A stretch of 21,667 bases of DNA, from IMG/VR virus record IMGVR_UViG_3300046715_000034, positions 1 to 21,667 of that record; one strand, written 5' to 3'. The stretch's first letter is position 1. Each line of letters starts with the position of its first letter. Shown here in pieces: positions 6,868 through 9,848 of the stretch. The notes below the pieces were generated by a model. That model did not search any database. It saw nothing but the letters and a program-made list of their open reading frames with translations, and had not been told where the DNA came from. Source of the stretch: a virus. Made by a program: the position numbers and the translations under genes.

Positions 6868-7265
6868 CGCCTGACGAGGTCCTCGACCTCCTGACCCTCA
6901 TCGCGGTGCGCGACAACCGCACCGTCGGCCGCACCACCGCGATCGTCTGGCACGAAGACATCGGCGACCTCGCATTCGCCGACTGCCGTGAGGCCGTCGG
7001 GCGCCACTTCCGCGAGTCCACCGACTGGCTGATGCCCGCAACCGTCCGCCGCCTGGTGAAGGCCATCCGCACCGAGCGCCTCAACGGCTTCCAGTACGTG
7101 CCGGTCGCGGGTGACGACAACACGCAGGTCTACCTCGCCGCTCTCCGCGACCAGCGGGCGGCAGTGGCCGATGGGCAGCGCGAGGCCGCTCCGGTGATCG
7201 AGGTCGCCCAGCCGCGCGCCGAGGCCGTACGGGCGATCGTCTCCGGCGCGTTCCGCCGCCCCTGA
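6864..7265 (+). CDS. probable helicase-loader / replication accessory protein (133 aa)
   Basis: Likely partner of the upstream initiator. The N-terminal ~70 residues form a compact helical domain: 'MTPDEVLDLLTLIAVRDNRTVGRTT', then a Trp in 'IVWHEDIGDLAFADCREAVGRHF', and 'WLMPATVRRLVKAIR'. This pattern of helices with a conserved Trp and a Pro before the last helix resembles the N-terminal domain of SPP1 G39P-type helicase loaders. No Walker A motif is present, so it is not a DnaI/DnaC-type ATPase loader. The C-terminal half is Ala/Glu-rich and probably flexible. GTG overlaps the initiator stop, mirroring the lambda O-P gene pair. The loader assignment is inference from position and pattern. 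Confidence 0.68.
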   Translation: MTPDEVLDLLTLIAVRDNRTVGRTTAIVWHEDIGDLAFADCREAVGRHFRESTDWLMPATVRRLVKAIRTERLNGFQYVPVAGDDNTQVYLAALRDQRAAVADGQREAAPVIEVAQPRAEAVRAIVSGAFRRP

Positions 7266-7292
7266 CTGCCATCCCCTCCGAGAGGAACCCCC

Positions 7293-7508
7293 ATGAGCAC
7301 GATCCCCAAGGAGCTCCAACCGGCCGCCAAGCATGCGCGTAAGGCGGGCTGGACCGTGGAGCCCACCCGTGGCGGGCATCTGGCCTGGGTGCCGCCTGAG
7401 GGCCAGACCGTGTACAGCCCGTCGACGCCGTCGTGTTCACGGTCGGTCGCGAACGTGCTGGCGAAGCTCCGGCGGGCCGGTCTGCGACTGGATCGGCCAC
7501 CGTCATGA
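7293..7508 (+). CDS. HicA-like small protein (71 aa)
   Basis: Resembles the HicA mRNA-interferase fold (a double-stranded-RNA-binding-like domain). It has 'KELQPAAKHARKAGWTVEPT' as first helix and strand, 'RGGHLAWVPP' at the position of the catalytic G-S-H motif (His kept, Ser replaced by Gly), and a final helix in 'SVANVLAKLRRAGL'. Length (71 aa) is normal for HicA. No HicB-like antitoxin follows; the next gene does not look like HicB. It may therefore be an orphan toxin-like or RNA-binding protein, common in actinobacterial genomes. The gene starts after a 27-bp gap with GAGAGGAA upstream, so it is not translationally coupled to the replication genes. Confidence 0.65.
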   Translation: MSTIPKELQPAAKHARKAGWTVEPTRGGHLAWVPPEGQTVYSPSTPSCSRSVANVLAKLRRAGLRLDRPPS

Positions 7509-7756
7509 CCGCCCCCGATCAGGCCGAGGAAGCCGACCGGGCAGCGCATCACATCGATCGCCTGCTGGCGCCGTACGTCCCTGACGTGTCCCGCTGGGAC
7601 CTGGCTCTGCGGATCGTCGCCGACATGCAGGCCGAGGAGTGGCGGTGTATCCGCCGCCCGCCGAATGTCATCACGGCCACCCGTGATGGCACCCCGCCGA
7701 ACGATGACTGGCTGGCCGCGAAGGCCGCCATCACCCGGAAGGAAGACGATGCCTGA
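7505..7756 (+). CDS. hypothetical acidic protein (83 aa)
   Basis: Not recognised. The N-terminus is acidic and helical (QAEEADRAAHHIDRLLAPYV), followed by 'WDLALRIVADMQAEEWRCI', a basic 'RRPPNVITATRD' turn and 'WLAAKAAITRKEDDA'. ATG overlaps the HicA-like gene's stop (ATGA). Although it occupies the position an antitoxin would, it lacks the HicB core (partial RNase H fold plus HTH) and should not be called HicB. The function is unknown. Confidence 0.7.
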   Translation: MTAPDQAEEADRAAHHIDRLLAPYVPDVSRWDLALRIVADMQAEEWRCIRRPPNVITATRDGTPPNDDWLAAKAAITRKEDDA

Positions 7757-8705
7757 CCCCACCGCACCCGAAATGAGGCCCGTGTCCGTGGAGTCGCCCG
7801 GCAACGACGGCTTCCGCTACGAGCCCGCGCGCACACCGCCGGACGACACCACCGAAAGCCTGCACGAGCAGATCCAGCAGGCGATTCTCGACCAGGCGGC
7901 CGTCTGGGAGGAAGGCGCCATGCGGGCTGTCGGCGTGGCGGATGCCGCCACCGTTGCCGCTCGCACGGTGGCGCCTGAGCTGGAGCGGCTACGGGCCGAG
8001 CTGGCCGAGATCAAGCGCGTCACCGAACCGCCGACCGACGAAGAGATGCCCACCGACCCAGCCGAGTTGCGGGAGATGTGGGAGTTCATCAATCGACAGG
8101 CCCGCTGGCAGTGGCACATGGCGCACAAGTTCGGCGAGCAGGTGGAGCGGCTACGGGCCCAGCTGGAACGCCGCTCCGAGTCGCACCTCTTCTGGCGGAA
8201 GTTCGCCGTGAAGCTCGAAGCCGAGCGGGACGATGCGCGAGACGAGCGGGACGCGCTCAGGCACGAGGTCGAACAGTGGCAGGCGACCTACGGCGAGACC
8301 GCGCTGCGAGATGCGCGGAAGATCATCACCGAGCGGGACGCGCTCAAGGCCGCCACCAAGAAGATCCACGAGGCCGCGCGGCGGCTCCAGGAAGCCGAGA
8401 GCCCCGGCGTCGCTGCGTTCTGGTCGCACGAACTACTGAAGCTCACGCTCGCTCTGGCCGCCACTGAGAGCCACGAGGCCAAGCCCTGCCCGCGTTGCGA
8501 CGGAAGCCGCTTCGAGCCCGGCACCGAGACCGAAGGCGACTGGGATTCGGCAGCCATGAGGCACCACCCGTACACCGGCGAGCCGTGCTCGGCATGCAAT
8601 GGCACCGGCAAGGCCCCTGAGAGCAACGCTCCCGCCCGTACTCCCGTGACTGCGGGTGCGGAGGCGCACGGTGAGGCTGGAGAGGCACAGGAGGCCCGAG
8701 AGTGA
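7749..8705 (+). CDS. coiled-coil protein with DnaJ-like CxxC zinc motifs (318 aa)
   Basis: A long protein of unknown role. Residues ~40-235 are mostly charged helix with heptad-like stretches (APELERLRAELAEIKRV, 'EQVERLRAQLERRSES', 'KLEAERDDARDERDALRHEV', ERDALKAATKKIHEAARRL). Near the C-terminus two Cys pairs, C247-x2-C250-x-G ('CPRCDGSRF') and C280-x2-C283-x-G-x-G ('CSACNGTGK'), reproduce half of the DnaJ zinc-finger repeat set. The last ~30 residues are Ala/Glu-rich. There is no J domain (no HPD). Internal DNA repeats (for example GAGCGGGACGCGCTCA at 8244 and 8331) mark duplication within the coiled coil. ATG at 7749 overlaps the previous gene, and the stop overlaps the transporter start. 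Confidence 0.75.
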   Translation: MPDPTAPEMRPVSVESPGNDGFRYEPARTPPDDTTESLHEQIQQAILDQAAVWEEGAMRAVGVADAATVAARTVAPELERLRAELAEIKRVTEPPTDEEMPTDPAELREMWEFINRQARWQWHMAHKFGEQVERLRAQLERRSESHLFWRKFAVKLEAERDDARDERDALRHEVEQWQATYGETALRDARKIITERDALKAATKKIHEAARRLQEAESPGVAAFWSHELLKLTLALAATESHEAKPCPRCDGSRFEPGTETEGDWDSAAMRHHPYTGEPCSACNGTGKAPESNAPARTPVTAGAEAHGEAGEAQEARE

Positions 8706-9250
8706 AGCAATCAACCGGAATCCTCGCTGCCGTTGGCGCGCTGGCCACCTACGTCGGCGCCGTCGTCGCCGCCAACTGGCTCACCAGCCGATATGGGTTC
8801 GTCCCCGTCGGATTCGGCCTCACAACCACCGCCGGGACGTATGCCGCCGGCGTGGCCCTGCTCGCACGTGACGCCCTCCAGGACACGGCTGGGCGCCGGG
8901 CAGTACTCGCCGCCATCTGCATCGGTGCCCTGCTGAGTGCCTGGCTGTCAACCCCGCAACTTGCCCTCGCATCTGGCGCCGCGTTCCTGATCGCCGAGCT
9001 GTCCGACATGGCGATCTACACACCGCTACGCAGGCGCGGCTGGGCGCGGGCCGTGCTCGCATCCAACGCCATCGGCGCGGCGCTAGACACGGTCGCATTT
9101 CTCGCCCTGGCCGGCTTCCCGATCTGGACCGCACTGCCCGGCCAACTCGTCGGCAAACTCCTGTGGGCCACCGCGGCGCCCGTCGCTGTCGTCGTCGCCG
9201 TCCGGAGGGTGCGCCGCCGTGCTGTACCTAGCCACGCCGTCGGGGGATGA
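8702..9250 (+). CDS. VUT/YhhQ-type queuosine-precursor transporter (182 aa)
   Basis: Integral membrane protein predicted to import 7-deazaguanine precursors (preQ0/preQ1). About five hydrophobic helices are visible (~6-27, 36-56, 66-84, ~86-100, 115-165). The VUT-family hallmarks are present: a 'TTAGTYAAG' segment, an 'RDALQD' loop, 'ASGAAFLIAELSDMAIYTPLRRR' (about residues 88-110, with the conserved A-E-x-x-D-x-x-x-Y) and 'ASNAIGAALDTVAFL' (S-N-x-x-G-x-x-x-D-[ST]). The characterised members are E. coli YhhQ and related queuosine-precursor transporters. It overlaps the downstream DpdA/TGT-like gene by 32 bp, which links the two functionally. GTG overlaps the upstream stop. Transport substrate is inferred from family. 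Confidence 0.83.
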   Translation: MKQSTGILAAVGALATYVGAVVAANWLTSRYGFVPVGFGLTTTAGTYAAGVALLARDALQDTAGRRAVLAAICIGALLSAWLSTPQLALASGAAFLIAELSDMAIYTPLRRRGWARAVLASNAIGAALDTVAFLALAGFPIWTALPGQLVGKLLWATAAPVAVVVAVRRVRRRAVPSHAVGG

Positions 9251-9848
9251 GGTGAGAGCCGCGATGACTGCCGGACTGCTCGGCTGCATGACGACACCCG
9301 CGCAAGGCAACCGGATCCCCGACGGAGCGTGGTACGCCTGCGACAACGGCAAGTTCGGCAAGGGATGGCCCGGCGCTGACCGCTGGTACGCATGGCTGAC
9401 CGAGACCGCCGAGCAGTACGGGCACGATCGCTGCCTGTGGGCGGTCGCTCCCGATGTTCCGTTCGATGCGGCTGGCACGCTCGCCGAATCCCGGCCGTGG
9501 CTGGCCCGCATCCGCGACCTTGGCATCCCGGCCGCATTTGCCGCACAGGACGGCGCCGAGAACGGCCTCATCCCGTGGGGCGAGTTCGACGTGCTGTTCA
9601 TCGCTGGATCCACCGAATGGAAGATCGGCCCGGCAGCTGCACGCCTCACCAGTGAAGCGAAAGCCCGCGGCCTGACTGTCCACATGGGGCGTGTGAACTC
9701 CCTACGCCGTATGACGATCGCGTCCACGTTCGGATGCGACACCGCAGACGGCACTTACCTCGCGTTTGGCCCTGACAAGAACCTGCCGAAGGTTCTCGCG
9801 TGGATGGCCGAGGTCGGCAACATGATCCCGCTTGGGGAGGCGTCTTGA
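9219..9848 (+). CDS. DpdA/tRNA-guanine-transglycosylase-like protein, candidate DNA 7-deazaguanine transglycosylase (209 aa)
   Basis: Candidate base-exchange enzyme that would insert a 7-deazaguanine into phage DNA. Features of the TGT/DpdA TIM-barrel group can be followed: N-terminal strand 'MLYLATPSG', 'WYACDNGKFGKG' with D42 at the place of the D-S-G-G-F motif, 'VAPDVPFDAAGTL' with D79 and D83, 'AFAAQDG' at ~106-112, 'FIAGSTEWKIG' (127-137), 'HMGRVNS' (155-161) and 'DTADGTYLAFGP'. At 209 aa it is shorter than bacterial TGT (~375 aa) or bacterial DpdA and lacks a visible zinc-binding Cys3-His set, as expected of compact phage forms. GTG start has GGAGGG about 10 bases upstream and lies within the transporter gene. 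The family call is from pattern memory; a generic TIM-barrel protein is the alternative. Confidence 0.65.
   Translation: MLYLATPSGDEVRAAMTAGLLGCMTTPAQGNRIPDGAWYACDNGKFGKGWPGADRWYAWLTETAEQYGHDRCLWAVAPDVPFDAAGTLAESRPWLARIRDLGIPAAFAAQDGAENGLIPWGEFDVLFIAGSTEWKIGPAAARLTSEAKARGLTVHMGRVNSLRRMTIASTFGCDTADGTYLAFGPDKNLPKVLAWMAEVGNMIPLGEAS

Follow-up and report, generated by a model that had tools for sequence, protein, structure and literature searches.

The locus examined here raises the question of whether a phage could place 7-deazaguanine bases in its DNA from a precursor that it imports rather than synthesizes, and whether a protein of only 209 residues could perform the exchange. It lies on a 21,667-base virus fragment (hereafter, the window). 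An initial annotation had proposed a minimal two-gene module, with a VUT/YhhQ-type membrane protein overlapping a 209-aa protein by 32 bp, and we confirmed both open reading frames, their overlap (Table 1), and the motifs quoted for them (AELSDMAIY and SNAIGAALDT in the VUT protein; D42-N-G, A-P-D79, GSTEWK, and HMGRVNS in the 209-aa protein). The pair is real, but the module does not end with it: a helix-turn-helix (HTH) gene and a Mom-like gene continue the same overlapping plus-strand run, which consists of a long ORF (ending at 8705), the VUT gene, the 209-aa gene, the LuxR-type HTH gene (overlapping each flanking gene by 4 bp), the Mom-like gene, and another ORF. The exact 32-bp overlap was also found in Streptomyces-type relatives. 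As had been claimed of FolE, QueD, QueE, and QueC, our HMMs detected no que gene within the 21,667-base window, nor did they detect a canonical DpdA. A small HicA-like ORF was seen at window 7293-7505 (Pfam E 0.0033, below the cut-off).

Table 1. Features of the overlapping gene run, in window coordinates.
Feature	Position	Strand	Basis
VUT (PF02592)-family membrane protein, 182 aa, GTG start; probable 7-deazaguanine/queuosine precursor importer	8702..9250	+	Pfam, PHROG, hydrophobic segments
Compact DpdA/TGT-like base-exchange enzyme (predicted), 209 aa, GTG start; phrog_15826	9219..9848	+	AlphaFold, TGT structural matches, invariant residues
32-bp overlap of VUT gene and compact gene	9219..9250	+	Coordinates; kept in relatives
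LuxR/GerE-type helix-turn-helix protein, 77 aa	9845..10078	+	Pfam GerE E 1.6e-07, above cut-off
Mom-like DNA-modification protein, 149 aa	10075..10524	+	phrog_1384 E 7.2e-38

The membrane protein passed the gathering cut-off of Pfam Vut_1 (E 9.1e-11, 42.8 bits; cut-off 27.2), matched phrog_4899 (E 5.7e-38), and contained several hydrophobic segments. Against the NCBIfam model for queuosine precursor transporters (TIGR00697) it missed the curated cut-off (E 2.7e-08, 33.8 bits; cut-off 50.95), and we therefore assign it to the VUT family only, with precursor transport as a putative role. Judged by its sequence, it is probably an importer of a queuosine or 7-deazaguanine precursor. The VUT proteins of phages Aoka, ReqiPine5, and Bunnies have a relative in E. 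coli phage CAjan that is annotated as a 'putative preQ0 transporter' and lies within the CAjan preQ0 cluster.

The 209-aa protein matched phrog_15826, a PHROG with no assigned function, over 205 residues (E 3.1e-88), and had no match in Pfam or NCBIfam. Searches of PDB-chain sequences with the protein and its profile returned chance matches only (e.g., RecA and sugar-binding proteins); canonical DpdA queries likewise missed TGT among the PDB sequences, so the absence of a sequence match for the compact protein means little. Structurally, the TGT-type barrel anticipated in the initial annotation was found, with the AlphaFold model (16 aligned relatives as input) forming a TIM barrel at a mean pLDDT of 89.9. 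TGT entries made up most of the VIA-align match list (Z 14.2-14.7, rmsd 2.7-3.1, ~190 residues), the top one at a Z of about 14.7 and rmsd 2.7 over 192 residues, and the top BFVD matches included phage queuine tRNA-ribosyltransferases, the canonical enzyme of Arthrobacter phage Sonali among them. Equally good scores came from other TIM barrels (pyruvate kinase, Z 14.8; ribulose-phosphate epimerase, Z 14.4), so that the fold alone cannot decide function, and the active-site pattern weighs more than the fold in our assignment.

That pattern is strict. The residues that never vary among 13 members, the most diverged of them 30% identical, include D42-N43-G44, P78-D79, Q110, G130, K135, H155-x-G157-R-V-N160, and D177-G178, and they fall on the six TGT/DpdA blocks; placed by eye rather than by residue-level superposition, these blocks follow the order seen in E. 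coli TGT and phage 9g DpdA and are similarly spaced (Table 2). Every block sits at or just past the end of a barrel strand in the AlphaFold model. In order, D42, D79, Q110, G130, and D177 are the compact counterparts of D102, D156, Q203, G230, and D280 of Z. mobilis TGT, which we take to be its catalytic and base-binding residues. Aligned by hhalign, the compact profile and canonical phage DpdA gave a P of 0.002 over 144 columns spanning the blocks, at a weak probability of 13.9%, and invariant H155 was paired with H196 of 9g DpdA, the conserved histidine of 9g-type DpdA named in an earlier survey (PMC6884629); with E. coli TGT as the sole partner, hhalign produced nothing usable.

Table 2. 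Active-site blocks in E. coli TGT, phage 9g DpdA, and the compact enzyme.
Block	E. coli TGT	9g DpdA	Compact enzyme
1	TDSGGF	LDSGAF	CDNGKF
2	FDECTP	LDGIGD	APDVPFD
3	IIQGS	CFHAGE	AAQDG
4	GGLAVGE	GGLVG	AGSTEWK
5	LMGVG	VHGFGIT	VHMGRVN
6	MFDCVMP	SCDSSSW	TADGTY

With the bacterial TGT structures (E. coli Tgt, Z. mobilis TGT), then, the protein has in common the TIM barrel and the catalytic blocks, but it is about half as long and lacks the C-terminal CxCxxC zinc motif (position 302 in E. coli Tgt), which is also absent from 9g DpdA. Phage DpdA (Enterobacteria phage 9g, CAjan, and Rosebush-type; PMC6884629) shares with it the block order, the DpdA-type histidine, the lack of CxCxxC, and the association with preQ0-supply genes. 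The differences are that phage DpdA is 290-317 aa long as against about 209 aa, that the histidine of its CFHAGE block is a glutamine in the compact enzyme, that sequence similarity is barely detectable, and that the compact enzyme usually has an importer as its partner in place of a preQ0 pathway. On model and sequence, the protein is thus assigned to a compact DpdA/TGT-like subfamily that is set apart from known DpdA, which bears out both the TGT/DpdA-like character and the distinct subfamily first suggested for it.

The family is broad. A profile scan of IMG/VR found relatives of the compact enzyme on at least 552 stretches, which, together with the Pfam Vut_1 match, the phrog_15826 match, and the recurring overlap, places the gene pair beyond chance. 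Isolated carriers include phages of Mycobacterium, Arthrobacter, Rhodococcus, Erythrobacter, Synechococcus, Vibrio, and Escherichia, and the gene is present at a minimum of 33 loci in actinobacterial genomes, mostly Streptomyces. Mycobacterium and Arthrobacter phage homologues already bear the SEA-PHAGES annotation 'DpdA-like tRNA-guanine transglycosylase', and those of Bunnies, Aoka, Sonali (gp81), and StevieRay are direct homologues, 47-56% identical and mostly VUT-adjacent; in the literature that we searched, we found neither a description of the subfamily nor an experiment on these homologues, which are known by annotation only. Two Escherichia phages, SHIN8 and phiG7, have the compact gene divided over two frames (L076 and L077, each at 7001-7593) between their clamp and polymerase genes, a site at which it is missing in CAjan and intact in Vibrio phage R29Z.

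What, then, could supply such an enzyme? We surveyed the neighbors at all loci with HMMs for VUT, QueC, QueD, QueE, FolE, canonical DpdA, Mom, and PAPS reductase-like proteins. Among 78 non-redundant viral loci, VUT lay upstream in 55, QueC, QueD, or QueE was present in eight, both in none, and neither in 15, counts that are weighted to close relatives and come from phylogenetically non-independent loci. In the 55 loci the VUT gene was on the same strand, and the distance from the end of its match to the compact start was no more than 50 bp in 45 and no more than 430 bp in all 55. A naive Fisher test of the exclusivity of VUT and Que gave a P of 2e-5, ignoring relatedness; on the tree, the que-linked state needed five label changes, at least three of them forced by well-supported branches. 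Pairing with an importer, as initially proposed, is therefore the rule among viral relatives, and import in place of synthesis held as the usual arrangement, but not as a general one: some relatives use QueC/D/E and some have neither. Since VUT or QueC/D/E stands beside the same enzyme, import and synthesis appear to be interchangeable supplies for it. At the loci with neither supplier, inspection of the upstream ORFs by eye revealed no common alternative transporter; upstream of one such compact gene is a protein (L156 4333-5205) that by eye resembles the phage Gp37/Gp68-type (DUF5131).

Searches of 50 whole contigs found QueC in eight and canonical DpdA in two. QueC occurred with the compact enzyme, and canonical DpdA went undetected, in five whole contigs (L112, L114, L126, L132, and L157), two of which span 65 kb and 41 kb, and likewise in L158, a near-copy of L157. 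The QueC match carries one in-frame TGA in each of L157 and L158, through recoding, a frameshift, or an artefact. Canonical DpdA does accompany the compact gene in Sonali, R29Z, and L135, and we rejected the idea that the compact enzyme always substitutes for it; where the two co-occur, the compact enzyme may be a second exchanger. Sonali encodes the compact enzyme, canonical DpdA, and a full preQ0 cassette (L022 21054-21671 and 24041-24931).

Bacterial genomes that carry the gene bear on its purpose as well. None of ten actinobacterial genomes with the compact gene had a tRNA TGT, which was found in all 14 control genomes, so host tRNA queuosine is an unlikely purpose, and the idea that the pair serves it was down-weighted. 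Chromosomal QueC was clear in four of the ten (each time with QueE and QueD as neighbors), absent in five, and a weak match only in one, and no VUT gene was detected anywhere in five. The Streptomyces island members L025, L027, L028, and L052 belong to genomes with neither VUT nor a clear QueC. In L052 (S. scabiei) and its kin (L031-L041, L055), the compact gene is part of a conserved Streptomyces island that also carries secretion/conjugation-like ATPase genes but in which no precursor supplier was seen.

The Mom-like gene adds a further putative modification enzyme to the run. The reference point is Mom of phage Mu, which is responsible for adenine hypermodification (PF25680 / phrog_1384). 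The window protein matched phrog_1384 ('Mom-like DNA modification protein') but missed the Pfam Mom gathering cut-off (E 5.1e-04, 20.2 bits; cut-off 27.1), so we call it 'Mom-like' only and regard its activity as putative. Besides the window, Mom-like genes lie in or near the compact-gene operon at L009 7142-7588, L034 4125-4481, L128 6573-7013, and L137 7099-7548, as well as in L151 and in a set of Streptomyces islands (L025, L027, L028, L029, L043, and L046). The order in L028 (3434-9131) is DprA-like, PAPS reductase-like, compact enzyme, Mom (Pfam E 1.5e-20), and PP-loop protein, and clusters of this type in the six Streptomyces loci could possibly represent an unnamed DNA-modification island. 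The proximity of Mom suggests combined hypermodification. We offer only tentatively, as an idea that is more doubtful than not, that a single operon might direct two unrelated hypermodifications (exchange for an imported 7-deazaguanine and Mom-type adenine modification), co-regulated by the intervening HTH protein; if true, the camouflage of phage DNA would hinge on a base scavenged from the environment.

Taken as a whole, we favor, at a probability of roughly two in three, an import-fed module for DNA base exchange in which a compact DpdA puts 7-deazaguanine into phage DNA. Gene anatomy, fold, invariant active-site pattern, and neighbor pattern are computed, and from them we infer which base is used, that it goes into DNA, what the named catalytic residues do, and that restriction is thereby averted. 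Mechanistically, the VUT protein in the host membrane would import a 7-deazaguanine precursor, for which preQ0 or something closely related is the likeliest candidate. The compact DpdA, with its TGT-superfamily TIM barrel, would then act on selected guanines of phage DNA by cleaving their glycosidic bond, with D177 as the candidate nucleophile and D42 as the candidate general acid/base by analogy with TGT, so that guanine would be released and 7-deazaguanine inserted. DNA modified in this way would presumably be hidden from restriction enzymes. Counting against the model are the weak sequence homology, the Streptomyces islands without a supplier, and the 15 viral loci at which none is visible. 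There is also a precedent against it in Mycobacterium phage Orion, which encodes DpdA and has unmodified DNA (PMC6884629).

The same fold and active-site blocks belong to tRNA TGT, and the compact enzyme might instead be a TGT-superfamily transglycosylase that acts on host or phage tRNA, fed by VUT, and gives the phage a queuosine-like tRNA modification. Consistent with this, Q110 resembles TGT (IIQGS) and not the histidine of canonical DpdA (CFHAGE), and the lack of TGT in the ten gene-carrying actinobacterial genomes would leave their tRNAs free as targets. We nevertheless consider an RNA substrate unlikely, as the C-terminal zinc region of E. coli TGT is missing just as it is in 9g DpdA, the DpdA-type histidine is kept (H155/H196), and a Mom-like DNA-modification gene lies nearby in several loci. 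Slightly less credible still is a salvage or tailoring role, for example in hydrolyzing an imported nucleoside so that its 7-deazaguanine is released for another enzyme to insert: adjacency to VUT fits the salvage of imported compounds, and the three phages with a canonical DpdA would have such an inserting enzyme, but no canonical DpdA was detected in 48 of the 50 contigs, and salvage would be needless beside a QueC/D/E cassette.

The chemistry, too, might differ, with the protein being a TGT-like exchanger of some base outside the queuosine precursors and VUT carrying that compound. The shortfall of the window VUT protein against the queuosine-precursor-transporter model would agree with this, as would the Streptomyces members that lie between PAPS-reductase/PP-loop-like and Mom genes in genomes without VUT or a clear QueC; the repeated replacement of VUT by QueC/D/E speaks instead for chemistry of the preQ0 type across most of the family, and we regard another base as improbable. 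That the protein is an unrelated TIM-barrel enzyme with no part in DNA modification, next to VUT by coincidence, would account for the ties with other barrels and for the silence of the sequence libraries, yet it seems highly improbable given the ordered, invariant TGT-type blocks and the association with suppliers.

Set against what is known, the proposed import-fed exchange of bases in DNA would give substance to an earlier proposal. The literature already covers DpdA, the phages that use it, and the notion that a precursor is taken up (PMC6884629): Hutinet et al. 2019 described a 'third group' of DpdA-only phages without preQ0 genes, for which uptake of an exogenous precursor was proposed, and in that survey the DpdA phages lacking a precursor pathway were the largest 7-deazaguanine group and the hardest to predict. 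YhhQ homologues were noted there in some phages, with no correlation to any phage group (PMC6884629), whereas the compact subfamily has a strong link to VUT. What is new, as far as the literature that we searched shows, is the definition of the subfamily by its active site, the extent of its distribution, the rule of importer or synthesis genes, and the association with Mom. The suggestion of uptake thereby becomes a concrete, testable rule, in which the same enzyme has either an importer or biosynthesis genes adjoining it. The genus Mycobacterium has been reported to lack any queuosine-pathway genes (PMC6884629), and the Mycobacterium phages that carry the pair grow on M. smegmatis. If our reading is true, a DNA base-exchange enzyme of ~200 aa would be an unusually small tool for placing 7-deazaguanine in DNA.
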